NCBI GenBank assembly: GCA_022572185.1
Contig: JACZWL010000005.1
Location: 1-64,000, forward strand
Reading direction: 5' to 3'
Source of the DNA: Pseudomonadota bacterium
GTDB taxonomy: Bacteria; Pseudomonadota; Gammaproteobacteria; Steroidobacterales; Woeseiaceae
DNA: 64,000 nt
In this document: positions 42,577 to 49,542 of the stretch, piece by piece
Numbering within the stretch: the stretch's first letter is position 1
Layout of the letters: every line of letters starts with the position of its first letter
Program-made: the position numbers and the translations under genes
Notes under the pieces: model-generated
What the model saw: the letters and a program-made list of their open reading frames with translations, nothing else
Told to the model about the DNA's origin: nothing
Databases searched by the model: none

Positions 42577-43317
42577 TTAGCTGACTGCACCGCCGGCGGC
42601 GACAATGTCCTGTCCGGTAATCCAACGCGCCTGGTCCGAGACAAGAAACGCCACGATATCGGCAATATCCTCCGGCGCGCCGACGCGGTTGAAAGGCGAC
42701 ATTGCCCGGGCGTGTTGCTTAGCGGCTTCCGACGCGTCCTGAAACATGCCGGGTTCCACTGGTCCGGGGCTGATTGAGTTCACCGTAATTCCCTGCGGCC
42801 CGAATTCCTGGGCGCCAATTCTGGCGAACACTCTCGCTGACGCGCGGGTCGCGGCATACAAAGCGGTGCCGGGACGGCTGAGTTGTGCGAGGATTGATGA
42901 GATGTTGATGATTCGACCGCCCTCGCCAATTCTCTTCGCCGCTTCCTGCATACAGAAAAGATAGCCTTTGGTGTTAACCGCGAAAGCGCTTTCGTAGTCT
43001 TCCTCGGAAATCTCGCTGATGCTTTTTTGTATGCCCACGCCGGCGTTATTAATAAGTATATCGAGCCGGCCATATGTGTCATCGATGCCGGCGAACATCG
43101 CCCTGATCTGCGCGGTGTCGGAAATGTCAGCTTTGAATGTACGTGCCTCGCTGCCGGCAGCGGCCACGAGGCGAGCCGTTTCGGTGATGCCTTTGAGGTT
43201 GCTGCCATAGTGGCCTGCGATGGCGGCGCCCTGCGACGCAAGCTTCACCGCAATCGCACGCCCGATGGCGCCCGAAGCGCCGGTTATAAGTGCCACCCTG
43301 CCCTCAAGTTGACTCAC
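42577..43317 (-). CDS. Short-chain dehydrogenase/reductase with altered catalytic lysine
   Basis: A 246-residue classical SDR, FabG-like in layout. Seen: the TGASGAIGRAIA cofactor glycine motif near residue 13; NNAGVG near 90; the catalytic Ser region INISSILAQ near 138; the Tyr at about 154 in YAATRASARV; the PG motif SPGPVEPGMF near 183. The usual YxxxK is YxxxR here: the codon is CGC, so catalytic Lys is replaced by Arg. Some SDR-like proteins with this change are poor enzymes or have other roles; others may keep activity. Annotated product: SDR of unknown substrate. The 15-residue VGAPEDIADIVAFL segment and GGAVS end are family-typical. Confidence 0.9.
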   Translation of the reverse strand: MSQLEGRVALITGASGAIGRAIAVKLASQGAAIAGHYGSNLKGITETARLVAAAGSEARTFKADISDTAQIRAMFAGIDDTYGRLDILINNAGVGIQKSISEISEEDYESAFAVNTKGYLFCMQEAAKRIGEGGRIINISSILAQLSRPGTALYAATRASARVFARIGAQEFGPQGITVNSISPGPVEPGMFQDASEAAKQHARAMSPFNRVGAPEDIADIVAFLVSDQARWITGQDIVAAGGAVS

Positions 43318-43366: not shown

Positions 43367-43654
43367 TTACTCGTGAGCTATCGGTTTGTCGGTAAACAGG
43401 ATGTCCTTTAGCTCGGCATCAAACGTCGAATCCCTACGGCGAATCCACTCAAGGACCATTGCCGCGTGCTCCTTTTCCTCGTCCCGGTTGTGCGCAAGAA
43501 TCGCCGCGAGGTCAGCATCTCTGCACGCGTCAACCCGCTGGTTGTACCAATCGGTGGCTTCCAGTTCCTCCATAAGGGAGGTAATTGCGCGGTGCATATC
43601 TCTGGTGTCGTCAGATAGCTCGTCGATGGGTTCGTGATAACCCTCGTTTGCCAT
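43367..43654 (-). CDS. Encapsulated-ferritin-like (EncFtn-family) protein, without cargo tail
   Basis: A 95-residue two-helix protein highly similar in pattern to EncFtn, the ferroxidase cargo of encapsulin nanocompartments. Seen: HRAITSLMEELEATDWYNQR (helix 1, metal-ligand Glu) and HNRDEEKEHAAMVLEW (helix 2, ExxH at Glu60/His63), both classical EncFtn blocks that form an annular decamer with a di-iron site between subunits. EncFtn proteins usually end in an extension with a targeting peptide resembling TVGSLGIGSLK; this one stops at HE soon after helix 3, and no encapsulin shell gene is within the window. GGGAG eight bases before the ATG at 43654 fixes the start. Probable iron oxidation or storage role. 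Confidence 0.87.
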   Translation of the reverse strand: MANEGYHEPIDELSDDTRDMHRAITSLMEELEATDWYNQRVDACRDADLAAILAHNRDEEKEHAAMVLEWIRRRDSTFDAELKDILFTDKPIAHE

Positions 43655-43821
43655 GATGTGTTCTCCCAAATGAGGCTTTCCTCATTCTGTCAGATTTTTG
43701 TCGGCGTTACGCAATACCGGGAAATTTTATCTGCCGCCGGTGAATCAGGAGCAGGCGGTGCAATCGGTAATCAACGATCTGCGCGGATAATCATCGAAAA
43801 GCGAACTGCCGCAATTGCGGG

Positions 43822-45867
43822 CTACGAGTCTGCGGAGGGCAGTCTTATTTGAAACATGACGCCACCGTCAATGTTATCGGCACTGATCGAGCCGCCGTGG
43901 CCTTCGGCAATAAGTCGGGCGATAAACAATCCCAGCCCCAGGTGTTTGTCTCTGTTGTTGTCTCTTACGGATACCATCGAATCGAACAACTGACTCAGCA
44001 TCTTATCAGGCAGTGGTGGACCGGGATTCGATACCGTCACGATCACCTCACTTGCGTCGGATGTCAGCGTAATGTCTATCTGGTCGCCGTGAGCGCTGAA
44101 TTCCACGGCGTTTTCCACAAGCTTGTCGAGCATTTGAATGATCAACTCTGGCGCGCCTTCGATAGTGGCGTCAGCTGACTCCGAACTTAGCGAGAAGTGC
44201 CTCTCCGGATAGGCGTCGCCGTATGCGGCGATGGTTGATGTGAGCGCATCGTGCAGATTGAATCGCTCGAGTTCCGGGTCTTCCATGAGTTCTTCTACCT
44301 TGCTTGCTTCACTCATCGCGTTCAGGATTTTTTGTAACCGTTTCGCGCCGTCTTTTGCGCGCGCGGTGTAGCTGGCAGCTTCGTCTGTCAGCGGTTCGTG
44401 CTCCAGGTTTTCGAGTGATGAAGTAACTATGGTCAAAGGCGTTCGCAGTTCATGCGACAGCCTGGCTGCCAGGGAACGCAAATACTCGTTGTAGTTGCCG
44501 AGCCGTTGCAGGACGCTCGCAAAACTGCGTGAGAGATCGCCGATTTCGTCGTTTGCATACGCACTCGGGAGGTCCACGTGCACCTTATCCTCGTCAAGCG
44601 CAGTTTCGGCCGCGCTGCTAAGGCGCCGAATCCTCAGAGACAGCCAGTTCGAGTAGCCAAGAAGCGCGGCTGCCACAGCAAGTGTCGCGAACAGCGTGAA
44701 GTTCATCAGCCTCGTTAATGCCTGGCTGGTCAGGCTGAGGATTGCGTCGGTGCCCTGCTGGAGAATGACGACGCCTGTTTGTACATTACCGGACCAGACC
44801 GGTTGCGCCACGGCGACGATAGCACGGCCGTCACTGCGGCTACGGAACCAGCTCGTCGCTTGCGTAGCATTCAATGCCTGCGCGACGTAGTTCTGCTGCT
44901 CGCGGCCCGAAGGATCGGGTTCTGCGAGAAGCGCCTCTTCGCCCGGTTCCAAAAGCATGTTGTAGGCTATGCGCATCCAGCGTGACGAACCTTGTCCTGC
45001 CTCCTGGTCCGACCGGAAAAGCGAGATGTCGCCTGCCTGGGCCAGCCGCCATCCGGTCCGGTCAGTCACGATGAGTCGCAGGCCGGGCTGGACGTAACCT
45101 GCAACCACGCTCTGGAGCAGCGGAGACGCAGTGACAAATCGCCCCGGCAGCCGGCTGCCAAAGCTCGAGCTGCGAATACCGGGGTCATGCGCGCTTTTCG
45201 TGTTTGTAACAACGATACCAAGGTGTGAATCGAGCAGGCGTCGCGGCAGACGTGCTTCGAGTCGATAACCGGATGCGGTGTCCTGCCAGACCGCGAGAAT
45301 TCTTGGTTCAGAGAAGCGCCGACCGTCCGTTTGGACTGTGGCTACCAGGGATCCTGGCGCCTCGGCGGCAAATTCGAATAACGAGGTGAGATCGGTGCCG
45401 TCACTGGCTACCAGCACGATTCGATCGGAGAAGGCCTCCACCGCGTCGTCGTTGGCGCCGGCATCCACAGACGCGTAAACGATGTTGTCGTCGCGGACAT
45501 CAACAAACAGAAAAGCATGCTGTCCGCGAATGCCGAATGCGAACAAAATCGGCCCATCGACGCCCCGCATCGTTCTCGCCGACTCGGGCGAAATGGTCCA
45601 ATCGTCGATGTACCCGTCGATCAGGGGAGTTGACGAAAGCGGATGGCCGTATAACTGGTTCTCGCCGAATTGACTGGTGGCTGCGGCAATGGAAAATTCA
45701 TCGGGAAACTGCGACAGGGAATCGGCGATCGCCAGTGCCGTGCCGGACAGCATATTTTGCTGGCCCTCTCGAAGAGCGGATTCGGTTTCGCGAATGAACT
45801 GACAGCCAGCCCATGGTAGCACCAGAGTCAGCAGGCTAACCAACAGCAACTGGCGTCGAAGGTTCAT
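43822..45867 (-). CDS. pdsS: Sortase-system sensor histidine kinase (PdsS-like)
   Basis: A 681-residue membrane kinase of the proteobacterial dedicated sortase system. Seen: an N-terminal signal anchor (about residues 5-22), a large periplasmic region with a CBM9/DOMON-like beta domain (about 75-220; PLIDGYIDDWTISPES and HAFLFVDVRDDNIVY), a second membrane segment (about 388-408), HAMP (about 410-462), HisKA with His472 (ARLSHELRTPLTIV) and an HATPase_c domain (NAVEFS N-box; HLGLGLFIARLIAEGHGG G2-box). The CBM9-like sensor suggests carbohydrate or surface-glycan sensing (inference). It follows the response regulator by 27 bases; the pair is divergent from the sortase target gene. Confidence 0.9.
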   Translation of the reverse strand: MNLRRQLLLVSLLTLVLPWAGCQFIRETESALREGQQNMLSGTALAIADSLSQFPDEFSIAAATSQFGENQLYGHPLSSTPLIDGYIDDWTISPESARTMRGVDGPILFAFGIRGQHAFLFVDVRDDNIVYASVDAGANDDAVEAFSDRIVLVASDGTDLTSLFEFAAEAPGSLVATVQTDGRRFSEPRILAVWQDTASGYRLEARLPRRLLDSHLGIVVTNTKSAHDPGIRSSSFGSRLPGRFVTASPLLQSVVAGYVQPGLRLIVTDRTGWRLAQAGDISLFRSDQEAGQGSSRWMRIAYNMLLEPGEEALLAEPDPSGREQQNYVAQALNATQATSWFRSRSDGRAIVAVAQPVWSGNVQTGVVILQQGTDAILSLTSQALTRLMNFTLFATLAVAAALLGYSNWLSLRIRRLSSAAETALDEDKVHVDLPSAYANDEIGDLSRSFASVLQRLGNYNEYLRSLAARLSHELRTPLTIVTSSLENLEHEPLTDEAASYTARAKDGAKRLQKILNAMSEASKVEELMEDPELERFNLHDALTSTIAAYGDAYPERHFSLSSESADATIEGAPELIIQMLDKLVENAVEFSAHGDQIDITLTSDASEVIVTVSNPGPPLPDKMLSQLFDSMVSVRDNNRDKHLGLGLFIARLIAEGHGGSISADNIDGGVMFQIRLPSADS

Positions 45868-45894
45868 TTATCCAAAATTACCTGTAGCCGCCTG

Positions 45895-46599
45895 TCAGCC
45901 GCTTATCCAGCGATACCCCATGCCATAAACTGTTTCGATGGCCGCAAAATCCGGATCGATTGCGACAAACTTGCGCCTCACTCTTTTTATATGCGAGGTA
46001 ATGGTGTTGTCGTCGAGTACCGCCTGTGCCGCGTCCATCAATTGCTGCCGGCTTTTGACGTGGCCCGGGTAACGGGCGAGCGCATGAATCATCCAGAACT
46101 CTGTCAACGTCAGCCCGACCGGCTGGTCTTGCCATCGTACCGTCATACGGTCGACATCCAGCTCCAGATCACCGCGCGTAATGCGACTTTCCGCGCCTTG
46201 CGGTTTCTGCATCGCCTCGAGGCGCCGAAACAACGCGGCGACTCTCGCCATCAGATGGGGCAGGCTGATGTCCTTTGTCAGGTAGTCGTCGGCCCCCAGA
46301 CGCAGCCCTGAAACAGCATCGAACTCACTGTCCCTTGCCGTGAGAAAAATGATCGGCAAATCGCCGGCACGGCTGCGGAGGTCACGGCACAGATCGAAGC
46401 CGCCCTCGATATCGTCCTTGAGGTTTATGTCGATGACGACGAGGTCCGGCAGCCGGGCTTCGAATGCCTCCATTGCAGGTCTGCGGGCGTCGTAGAGCTC
46501 AACCGAATAGCCCTCGCGTCGAAAAGCCGCCGCGTAGTTCTCGCGGATAGCGGCCTCGTCTTCAACAATCGCAATTCGTTTCGACACGGTTTGCTCCAA
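45895..46599 (-). CDS. pdsR: Sortase-system response regulator (PdsR-like, OmpR family)
   Basis: A 234-residue OmpR/PhoB-type regulator: receiver domain (about 1-125; Asp57 in LVVIDINLKDD, acidic pair Glu13/Asp14, Lys near 107 in TKDISLP) and C-terminal winged helix (about 140-232; LTLTEFWMIHALARYPGHVKS and SHIKRVRRKFVAIDPDF). It pairs with the kinase 27 bases downstream. Its promoter region is shared with the divergent sortase target gene (46600-46766), the natural place for control of the target-sortase operon by this regulator. This is the PdsR position in the proteobacterial dedicated sortase system. Confidence 0.92.
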   Translation of the reverse strand: MEQTVSKRIAIVEDEAAIRENYAAAFRREGYSVELYDARRPAMEAFEARLPDLVVIDINLKDDIEGGFDLCRDLRSRAGDLPIIFLTARDSEFDAVSGLRLGADDYLTKDISLPHLMARVAALFRRLEAMQKPQGAESRITRGDLELDVDRMTVRWQDQPVGLTLTEFWMIHALARYPGHVKSRQQLMDAAQAVLDDNTITSHIKRVRRKFVAIDPDFAAIETVYGMGYRWISG

Positions 46600-46766
46600 T
46601 GATATTAGGCAACTCTGGAACCCAAAGCCTGCGCCTCATGTTCGGCTGCTACAGGCGCCCTGAAGCCATAATTTGCCACATTATGCCGGTGCATTGCCAT
46701 GCCAATGGCCGGGCCATGCCTGATCGTGCTGCTGAACTGTGATCCATGGCAACAAGGAGTGGGGAC

Positions 46767-48974
46767 ATGGATCATCGGGCAGCCGGCGCAACGGACCGCA
46801 GGGCGATCAGGAAAAGAGGGCAGTTATCGACCGCGCAGGAAAGCTGGCACCCTGGTTTGCCCGCCGGGGTCTGCGCAAACCGCATGAGTGAGCTCATGAA
46901 ACGGCATGCGTCGTGGCGCTGGATGACGCTCGGCGTACTGCTTTGCCTGTTGCGGCCAGGCCTGGCCAATACGGTAGCGGAAATCATGTTCGACGACCTG
47001 AGGCCCAGCCAGATGCAAAGTGGCAGTCTCCTCTTGCGCATGCTGTCCGGCTATCGCGTAGCCACGCGAATGAACACGGCTATCGATCTGCAGGTCAGCG
47101 GGCTCGTCGCGCACGTATCCGTGCAACAGAGATTCCTGAACGATGGCGCGGAATGGGTGGAAGGCATCTATGTGTTTCCATTGCCCGATGACGCGGCTGT
47201 CAACCGGCTGCGTATACACATCGGCGAGCGAATTATCGAAGGGGAGATTCGCGAAAAGGAGAAAGCGAGGAAGGAATACGAACAGGCAAAGATTCAGGGC
47301 AAGAAAGCGAGTCTTGTCGAACAGCAGCGAGCAAACCTGTTTACAACTTCAATCGCCAATATCGGTCCGGGCGAAGAAGTAACGGTTGAAATAGAGTATC
47401 TGCAGACCCTGAAATATGACGAGGGCACATTCAGCCTTCGGTTTCCGCTGACGATGACACCGCGTTTCATACCGGGCGCCCCGTTACCGGGCCGCAAAGG
47501 TTCGGGCTGGTCGCGGGATACGGCGCGTGTTCCGGACGCATCACTGATCACGCCGCCTGTCGTCACGAAATCGAAGGACCATAGAGTCACGCTGAATGCA
47601 AGAATCAATGCAGGCGTGCCCCTGGAGATTGTCGCCAGCCGATACCACCCGATCGACGTGCAACAGGTCGGTGACAGCTTCCAGGTGACGCTGATGAATG
47701 GTACGGCGGCACTCGATCACGATCTCGAGCTTCTCTGGCGGCCCGTTCCGGATAAGGCGCCGCGAGCCATGGTCTTCTCTGAAATGCGGAAGGGTGAGCC
47801 GTACGTCCTGCTGATGTTGCTGCCGCCGAACGAAACCATCGCTGACTCTGTCGTCATGCCTCGTGAGCTGATCTTCGTCATCGACACATCGGGTTCCATG
47901 CACGGGACCTCAATTGAGCAAGCGAAAAGGGCGTTACTCCTTGCGCTTGATGGCTTGAAGCCGGCAGATCGTTTCAATGTCATTCAGTTCAATTCGGTTA
48001 CCCGGTCCATTTTTCCGCACAGCGTCATGGCAGATCCCGGAACCGTACGAACGGCCGAGGCTTATGTGCGCGGTCTCAAAGCGAATGGTGGCACCAATAT
48101 GCGCCCGGCACTTGAGAAAGCACTGCGGAGCGCCGCCAGCGAGACTCACTTGCGACAGATCGTTTTCATGACGGACGGCAGCGTCGGCAATGAGCAGGAG
48201 CTTTACACGCTTATCGAGCGGGATCTCGGTCAGGCGCGTTTGTTTACCGTGGGCATCGGATCGGCCCCTAACGGCTGGTTTATGCGCAAAGCGGCCGAGG
48301 CCGGGCGGGGAACATACACCTATATCAGTGCACTGCACGAGATAGACGAAAAAATGGAACGGCTGATCCGTAAGCTGGAAAAGCCGCAGGTCACAGATAT
48401 ACGGATCCAGTGGCCGGACGGACTCAATCCAGTCAGTTATCCGGAAGCCATTCCGGATCTGTACGCCGGCGAACCGATCGTTATCAAAGCGCGGCTCGAA
48501 AACCGGCCGCGGCCGGGGGATCTCATCAGAATTAGCGGCGATTCCGCGGACGGAACCTGGGGTAGTGAATTGCCGCTTGCCGGGGTAAGCGACAGCCCGG
48601 GTGTTGCGGCGCTCTGGGCGCGGGCCCGAATCGAATCACTCCTGGACGACGAGCGGCGTGGCAGGGATCCGGCCGAAACCAGGACAGCTGTTGTGAAAAC
48701 CGCGCTCGAACATCACCTTGTCAGCAAGTTCACGAGCCTGGTGGCAGTGGACAAAACGCCGCAGCGGCCACTCTCGGCAAGCCTCGACAAAGAGCAGGTT
48801 CCCGACCTCTTGCCCTACGGGCAAAGTCAGCAGGCGATATTCGGCTTCCCGGCAACCGCGACCAATGCCCCGATGCAGCGCCTGATCGGTGTTGCCAGTT
48901 TGCTTGCCGCGCTGCTTCTACTTGCGCTTGCGCGTATTCAGGGATCAGTTCGTGAACTGCCGGCCGCTTCTTAG
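46767..48974 (+). CDS. Marine proteobacterial sortase target protein with VIT and VWA domains
   Basis: A 735-residue surface protein. Seen: a long n-region, then a hydrophobic signal segment at about residues 52-66 (MTLGVLLCLLRPG); a VIT (inter-alpha-trypsin inhibitor) domain at about 75-205; a VWA domain with MIDAS residues DTSGS (373-377) and MTDGS (near 469); a beta-rich C-terminal region; and the C-terminal sorting signal FPATA (694-698), hydrophobic stretch at about 706-723, and a short basic-ended tail. The signal is an LPxTA-like sortase motif. AAGGAG seven bases before ATG 46767 decides the start; it gives an unusually long 45-residue n-region, and ATGs at 46884 or 46896 would give a normal signal peptide but lack a good Shine-Dalgarno. 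The sortase gene overlaps its end. Confidence 0.92.
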   Translation: MDHRAAGATDRRAIRKRGQLSTAQESWHPGLPAGVCANRMSELMKRHASWRWMTLGVLLCLLRPGLANTVAEIMFDDLRPSQMQSGSLLLRMLSGYRVATRMNTAIDLQVSGLVAHVSVQQRFLNDGAEWVEGIYVFPLPDDAAVNRLRIHIGERIIEGEIREKEKARKEYEQAKIQGKKASLVEQQRANLFTTSIANIGPGEEVTVEIEYLQTLKYDEGTFSLRFPLTMTPRFIPGAPLPGRKGSGWSRDTARVPDASLITPPVVTKSKDHRVTLNARINAGVPLEIVASRYHPIDVQQVGDSFQVTLMNGTAALDHDLELLWRPVPDKAPRAMVFSEMRKGEPYVLLMLLPPNETIADSVVMPRELIFVIDTSGSMHGTSIEQAKRALLLALDGLKPADRFNVIQFNSVTRSIFPHSVMADPGTVRTAEAYVRGLKANGGTNMRPALEKALRSAASETHLRQIVFMTDGSVGNEQELYTLIERDLGQARLFTVGIGSAPNGWFMRKAAEAGRGTYTYISALHEIDEKMERLIRKLEKPQVTDIRIQWPDGLNPVSYPEAIPDLYAGEPIVIKARLENRPRPGDLIRISGDSADGTWGSELPLAGVSDSPGVAALWARARIESLLDDERRGRDPAETRTAVVKTALEHHLVSKFTSLVAVDKTPQRPLSASLDKEQVPDLLPYGQSQQAIFGFPATATNAPMQRLIGVASLLAALLLLALARIQGSVRELPAAS

Positions 48975-49542
48975 GTTTCGAGCGAGCCATATTGTCGTGG
49001 CCTGCTTGCTCTGCTTTGGATTCTGGCAGTTCGGGCAGGGGGCCTATATTCCCGCCAAAGCCTGGCTCGCGCAGGAACTCATGCAACGTGCGTGGCGGCG
49101 CGCGGGATCCGGCGAGGAACATGCGCCGCCTTGGCCCTGGGCCGATACCTGGCCCGTCGCGCGGCTGACTGCAAGGGGCGGCGATATTGACCTGATCATA
49201 CTTGAAGGGGGTTCCGGCAGAACGCTGGCGTTCGCCCCCGGCCACCTGAGCGCAAGCGTTCTGCCCGGTGAGACTGGCAACAGCATTATCGCCGGACATC
49301 GCGACACCCACTTTCAGTTTTTGCAATACCTGAAGAAAGGCGAATCGATAATGCTCGAAACGACGAAAGGCCGTAAGCACCTTTATCAGGTTACCGGTAT
49401 CGACGTGGTCGACGCCCGTCGCGGTAGCCTGGTTCTGGATACAGAGTCCCCGATGTTGAGCCTTGTCACCTGCTATCCGTTCGCTGCGCCCCAAGTGGGC
49501 GGGCCAATGCGCTACGTCGTTACCGCGAAGATGCTTTTCTGA
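48952..49542 (+). CDS. Class GN-type sortase
   Basis: Anchoring transpeptidase of the proteobacterial dedicated sortase system; 196 residues. Seen: one N-terminal hydrophobic helix (about residues 12-28, HIVVACLLCFGFWQ), the catalytic His116 in IIAGHRDTHFQFL, catalytic Cys174 in LVTCYPF and the catalytic Arg187 in GPMRYVV. The start is GTG, chosen because AGGGA lies seven bases upstream and because longer frames run back into the target gene. It overlaps the target by 23 bases, so the two are translationally coupled. The single dedicated target beside it explains the one-substrate nature of this system. What the target is joined to in a Gram-negative envelope is not established. Confidence 0.93.
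   Translation: MNCRPLLRFRASHIVVACLLCFGFWQFGQGAYIPAKAWLAQELMQRAWRRAGSGEEHAPPWPWADTWPVARLTARGGDIDLIILEGGSGRTLAFAPGHLSASVLPGETGNSIIAGHRDTHFQFLQYLKKGESIMLETTKGRKHLYQVTGIDVVDARRGSLVLDTESPMLSLVTCYPFAAPQVGGPMRYVVTAKMLF

Follow-up and report, generated by a model that had tools for sequence, protein, structure and literature searches.

Tailless EncFtn-like proteins in Gammaproteobacteria: occurrence apart from encapsulin shells and linkage to peroxide-defence genes

The window, by which we mean the whole stretch of 64,000 nucleotides analyzed here, carries on its minus strand (43367–43654) a gene for a tailless EncFtn-like protein of 95 residues, of the kind called s-FLP or Non-EncFtn, identified by PF22277, by a full-length match to PDB entry 3k6c and by conservation in relatives. 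The reading frame is intact from the ATG at 43654 to the TAA at 43369–43367, and a ribosome-binding site, GGGAG (43663–43667, minus strand), can be read from the sequence 8 nt upstream of the start codon. The PF22277 EncFtn-like profile matches the protein with an E-value of 3.6e-42 and 142.5 bits (curated cut-off 27), which places it in the family; the NCBIfam model TIGR04535 gives 127.5 bits, marginally above its cut-off of 125. An AlphaFold model (pLDDT 91.6, pTM 0.77) has two long helices (residues 15–43 and 47–74) and a short third (76–86), as the EncFtn-like family requires, and among PDB structures this model matches 3k6c best, with R. rubrum EncFtn also among the first. The closest solved relative is 3k6c itself, NE0167 of Nitrosomonas europaea, which resembles the window protein in its 95 residues, in a gap-free alignment of residues 1 to 95 from end to end, in the final KPIAHE and in the fold; it differs in having Leu at the position of Trp36 and in belonging to another organism. 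The window gene and 11 relatives show 37–51 synonymous and 8–17 non-synonymous codon differences, and because the former far outnumber the latter we conclude that the gene is under purifying selection.

The next gene upstream (43822–45867, minus strand) encodes a sensor histidine kinase that resembles the kinase of the proteobacterial dedicated sortase system (TIGR03785, 543.5 bits, below the cut-off of 612.2), and beyond it lies a response regulator gene of that system (45895–46599, minus strand; TIGR03787, 390.7 bits, cut-off 335.7). Together with genes for a target protein (TIGR03788) and a class GN sortase (TIGR03784), these two make up a sortase system that extends from 43822 to 49542. 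The next gene downstream (42577–43317, minus strand) encodes a short-chain dehydrogenase (best match TIGR01830, 188.5 bits, below cut-off), and there is no sign at the locus of a functional link between it and the EncFtn gene. A perfect 7-bp inverted repeat, AATGAGG-4-CCTCATT (43669–43686), stands between the kinase and EncFtn genes beside the ribosome-binding site and is a possible operator. By eye, the repeat was seen before the window gene and in none of the other upstream regions listed; the upstream regions of tailless genes, inspected in the same way, gave no common motif, and a conserved operator was rejected.

Both helical blocks that a preliminary description of this DNA had called nearly canonical are present as quoted there, with a complete set of ferroxidase residues. 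The first, MEELEATDWYNQR (residues 28–40; 43535–43573, minus strand), contains the entry-site residues E29 and E32, the ferroxidase residues E30 and Y37, and W36. The second, EEKEHA (residues 59–64; 43463–43480, minus strand), contributes ferroxidase E60 and H63 and exit-site E59 and E62, so that all four di-iron ligands of the family (E30, Y37, E60 and H63) are found in the window protein. The residues that excerpts of PMC5012862 name for R. rubrum EncFtn (E31, E32, E34, Y39, H57, E61, E62, E64 and H65) fall, in a gap-free alignment, on E29, E30, E32, Y37, H55, E59, E60, E62 and H63. Within this alignment the first block corresponds without gaps to R. rubrum E31/E32/E34/W38/Y39 and the second to E61/E62/E64/H65. 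Ten R. rubrum ferroxidase, entry and exit residues were mapped for the conservation count, including W38, which we take to be a site residue and the counterpart of W36. Eight positions, E29, E30, E32, Y37, E59, E60, E62 and H63, are identical in all 183 distinct tailless genes; H55 is kept in 182 and W36 in 181.

The protein ends in the short sequence DKPIAHE (43370–43390, minus strand), with a conserved His94 and no cargo tail. R. rubrum EncFtn (Rru_A0973; PDB 5da5) has the same fold, is about 60% identical and agrees at every ferroxidase, entry and exit residue, but its disordered tail bears a targeting peptide and it has a family 1 encapsulin as partner, according to excerpts of PMC5012862; the window protein has neither such a tail nor such a partner. 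No targeting motif was found in the window protein or in any of the three reading frames along the 200 nt that follow it, which confirms the absence of a targeting peptide claimed in the preliminary description. An EncFtn domain with a short C-terminus and without the C-terminal targeting peptide of an encapsulin cargo (FLP-TP) is what defines an s-FLP or Non-EncFtn, and this is the combination found here.

The same ending is seen throughout the group. The 220 loci encode 194 proteins of at most 104 residues, 23 longer ones and 3 fragments; removal of duplicates left 183 short and 21 long genes, 20 of the latter being used in residue and tail counts after exclusion of L212, a fusion locus. All 183 tailless orthologues end 6–15 residues past residue 88, and 178 have a His in this C-terminal tail, compared with 4 of the 20 long genes (first 12 tail residues). 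The published targeting consensus occurs in 14 of 20 tailed and none of 183 tailless proteins, and a wider pattern, drawn up after the tailed sequences had been seen, in 19 of 20 and again none of 183. A frameshift or lost tail was rejected on two counts: the downstream frames are empty of the motif, and the orthologues, whose C-termini the preliminary description had proposed to check, terminate at the same position in 183/183. On a gene tree (93 columns, 206 rows, 11 starred branches) the tail state changes about 4 times, versus 20 for shuffled labels; because the tree is poorly resolved, it serves only for this rough count. The missing tail is thus a feature of the group, with a short end that is itself conserved, and no accident. 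The preliminary description had implied an oddity, and here it was mistaken: the window gene belongs to a form that is widespread and conserved and has a relative of solved structure, has not lost a tail, and is neither broken nor unusual.

Little remains of the idea that the gene is a relic, a former cargo on its way out after loss of its shell. One orthologue, otherwise well conserved, has an in-frame TAG at codon 70 (L021, G035:C52), and two genomes (G061 and G085) retain fragments only, as a decaying gene would. The invariant ligands, the strong purifying selection and the single conserved C-terminal form, however, together with a spread over 59 families in the sample and a tail state that changed only about four times, largely refute it, and we give it a negligible chance.

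Two loci depart from the simple division into short and long forms. L212 (G253:C227) is a 492-residue frame that combines an EncFtn core with the latter half of an encapsulin (only profile positions 116–252); it may reflect a deletion, a real fusion or an assembly fault. L173 (G132:C20) encodes a 122-residue EncFtn with a Lys/Ala/Pro-rich tail, without a targeting motif or a family 1 encapsulin; it was counted as long-tailed despite the absent motif, and its genome carries a family 2 shell gene elsewhere.

The preliminary description had noted that the window contains no encapsulin shell gene, and this holds for the whole genome (3.14 Mb, 99 contigs, 96.1% complete): a search with PF04454 found no encapsulin, while its positive controls matched, and PF19307 found no family 2 encapsulin. 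The window gene consequently lacks the encapsulin partner, adjacent or elsewhere in the genome, that marks an FLP-TP cargo, and neither of the findings that the preliminary description had named as counting against it, an encapsulin gene or a frameshift restoring a tail, was made. Encapsulin is likewise absent from the 36 other genomes of the window's family that were searched; it was found in 3 of 60 relatives, every one in other families of the order.

A set of 80 loci, the best 80 of 574, is biased to tailless forms, and rates were taken from a sample of 369 Gammaproteobacteria genomes only. EncFtn was matched in 105 of these; 14 rows with weak or partial matches (E above 1e-11) were dropped, and 103 full-length places in 98 genomes were retained. 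Encapsulin is present in 19 genomes, a tailless EncFtn in 82 and a long EncFtn in 20. A tailless gene and encapsulin occur together in 4 genomes with 4.22 expected (Fisher p=1; the 369 genomes are non-independent), and an encapsulin gene lies within 10 kb of 20 of 21 long-tailed genes versus none of 82 tailless ones. Encapsulin is found in 19 of the 20 long-tailed genomes, and all 19 encapsulin genomes hold a long-tailed EncFtn. The family 2 shell PF19307 occurs in 6 of 369 genomes, including the tailless G194, and also G132; 81 of the 82 tailless genomes are without it.

Tailless EncFtns are already known as a kind. Excerpts of He 2016 (PMC5012862) use 'Non-EncFtn' for a group without an encapsulin sequence, and a 2024 review (PMC11202242) uses 's-FLP' for the tailless form, with NE0167 as type member, and regards their entry into shells as unclear. 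The review allows that the window protein is still an encapsulin cargo, retained through a signal of undefined nature in the short C-terminus. The TIGR04535 name is encapsulin-associated, fusion cargos need only a short linker (PMC11202242), and tailless genes do coexist with encapsulin in the 4 genomes mentioned. Against this, encapsulin is missing from 78 of 82 tailless genomes and lies adjacent to the tailless gene in none, nearly all lack a family 2 shell, and every encapsulin genome owns a long-tailed EncFtn that the shell gene, in 20 of 21 cases, adjoins; we regard the cargo reading as highly improbable. Targeting by a different route, which the preliminary description had offered, is at odds with the same 78 genomes without any family 1 encapsulin, and its other suggestion, that the protein works free in the cytosol, gains support from the lack of association between tailless genes and encapsulin. 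That tailless EncFtn works independently of any shell is well supported.

Two genomes of one genus hold both forms. In G037 (L224, G037:C72) the tailed EncFtn and the encapsulin are each missing large parts and the tailless gene is whole; in its congener G052, the tailed EncFtn, its encapsulin (L225, G052:C55) and the tailless gene are all intact. The losses in G037 could be an assembly fault, though they lie at separate places.

The genes around tailless EncFtns, called with a simple ORF caller, point instead to peroxide defence. When neighbours were clustered, those that recurred were rubrerythrin, a GlpC-like Fe-S oxidoreductase (RFO) and DUF3501, and the commonest order is rubrerythrin, RFO, tailless EncFtn, DUF3501. 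Rubrerythrin, RFO and DUF3501 are the three components of the aerobic-type rubrerythrin operon of Cardenas 2016, excerpts of which do not name EncFtn (PMC5114695). DUF3501 is the gene that marks this operon. A DUF3501 gene lies within 6 kb of the tailless EncFtn in 20 of the 82 sampled tailless genomes (16 families), mostly within the operon, and of none of 21 tailed genes. At the level of whole genomes, DUF3501 is present in 58 of 82 with a tailless gene versus 102 of 287 others (odds ratio 4.4, p=1.7e-8, for non-independent genomes), and at the level of families in 48 of 59 versus 41 of 120 (179 families, taken from genome labels and unequally sampled); 24 of the 82 tailless genomes are without it.

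Further neighbours are peroxiredoxins, catalase, disulphide reductases and LysR regulators; some of these names were read from the sequence, and Pfam confirms the peroxiredoxin, catalase and reductase domains. Among 95 immediate upstream same-strand genes (95/95 scanned), Pfam finds the CCG domain 12 times, DUF3501 4 times, and catalase and AhpC/TSA 3 times each; among 64 of 67 downstream genes, three overlapping upstream kinases being omitted, it finds DUF3501 8 times and AhpC/TSA 3 times. For control genes 2.5–5 kb away (107 of 110 scanned, three very long proteins being omitted), CCG, DUF3501, catalase and AhpC/TSA are absent among the 25 families listed. In the 93 loci with 4.9 kb of flank on each side, members of six peroxide-related clusters number 33 within 2 kb and 1 at 2–5 kb; called genes of every kind number 469 and 484 over the same two ranges. 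A peroxide-defence gene lies within 2 kb in only 30 of 183 tailless loci, and the window locus is not among the 30; the rubrerythrin-linked genes are scattered on the gene tree (17 changes for 19 genes, with 65 of 500 shuffles as low), so that they cluster no more than shuffled labels do. From this linkage, tailless EncFtn probably has a role in peroxide stress.

The window gene itself lies outside such an operon, beside neither rubrerythrin nor RFO nor DUF3501. Its genome has a rubrerythrin on another contig (L228, G000:C89, 3333–4924), with a shortened Fe-S oxidoreductase (311-residue frame) and then no more than the final part of a DUF3501 gene downstream; the shortened partners may represent a deletion or an assembly fault. 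The upstream kinase raises the alternative of a lineage-specific role outside peroxide defence, in which the protein would, in the window's family, serve the envelope signalling or sortase system of the preceding kinase. At 12 of 183 loci, including that of the window, the end of a histidine kinase gene meets the tailless gene or falls immediately upstream of it. A kinase lies within 300 bp at only 14 loci, however, 2 of these downstream, and beside most tailless genes there is none, which makes this alternative doubtful.

The protein could also, in line with the delivery of iron to another store that the preliminary description had suggested, be an iron feeder. It would then carry iron to bacterioferritin, or to di-iron and Fe-S enzymes (rubrerythrin and its Fe-S oxidoreductase, for example), or oxidise it for them. 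The window's genome holds both a bacterioferritin (TIGR00754, 253.7 bits) and the rubrerythrin, and at orthologous loci the EncFtn gene is often flanked by those for the Fe-S oxidoreductase and DUF3501. Bacterioferritin nevertheless occurs with tailless genes at chance (32 of 82 versus 107 of 287, p=0.80, in a count of this one store). It is no commoner with a tailless gene across the 369 genomes and was rejected as a partner store; a feeder role is a lesser possibility, though one with some weight. The same genome also encodes a 177-residue ferritin-like protein with a weak EncB match (L222, G000:C80, 1456–1989; 30.8 bits, cut-off 90), and the gene preceding it is presumably that of a 2-oxoacid oxidoreductase beta subunit.

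The reading that we favor, at a probability of roughly 60%, is that the window gene encodes an open-ring ferroxidase which works in the cytosol and brings down the level of reactive Fe(II) when the cell meets peroxide stress. It takes up the intact sites, the absence of targeting tail and shell, the conserved short tail and the linkage of orthologues to peroxide-defence genes, and presumes that the window's copy has the same role as its orthologues. The helical subunits would pair and assemble into an open ring of ten, a prediction based on the 2024 review's description of 3k6c, and two subunits would share a di-iron ferroxidase site; decameric rings and ferroxidase activity are known for EncFtn relatives (PMC11202242; excerpts of PMC5012862). 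Fe(II) would be bound at the E29/E32 entry site and oxidised at E30/Y37/E60/H63, by analogy with R. rubrum EncFtn, and Fe(III) would be released via H55, E59 and E62 to the exterior of the ring. At that point Fe(III) may be retained, or perhaps handed over, by the conserved His and the acidic residues of the C-terminus. No store would be filled; the task would be to keep reactive Fe(II) low under peroxide attack, alongside rubrerythrin, peroxiredoxins and catalase.

Dps mini-ferritins remove Fe(II) under peroxide stress, a task like the one proposed for tailless EncFtn. Dps, however, is a closed 12-subunit cage, and EncFtn is an open ring (PMC11202242). According to excerpts of PMC5012862, R. 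rubrum EncFtn did not act as a peroxidase on ortho-phenylenediamine, and it aggregated with iron when its shell was absent; because of this aggregation, a free EncFtn ring could be a poor iron sink.

Neither the count of shell independence nor the rubrerythrin link was found in print among openly licensed PubMed Central papers, and excerpts of PMC8346489, PMC7050145, PMC6934571, PMC11518796 and PMC7760498 mention neither. The group is more interesting than the single gene, appearing as a widespread, cargo-like ferroxidase that has no shell and often lies beside peroxide defence. The chances are about even that tailless EncFtn is an overlooked member of aerobic rubrerythrin and peroxide defence, acting as a lone cytosolic guard, with this shell-free use of the protein the commoner one in Gammaproteobacteria (82 versus 20 of 369 genomes). 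The genome counts answer, for Gammaproteobacteria, the question of shell entry raised by the 2024 review, and they point to a testable role of tailless EncFtn in peroxide defence beside rubrerythrin. They also indicate that the TIGR04535 label 'encapsulin-associated ferritin-like protein' is misleading in genomes without a shell, which here means 78 of the 82 tailless ones. If our reading is true, 'encapsulated ferritin' would describe one of two uses of the EncFtn fold.
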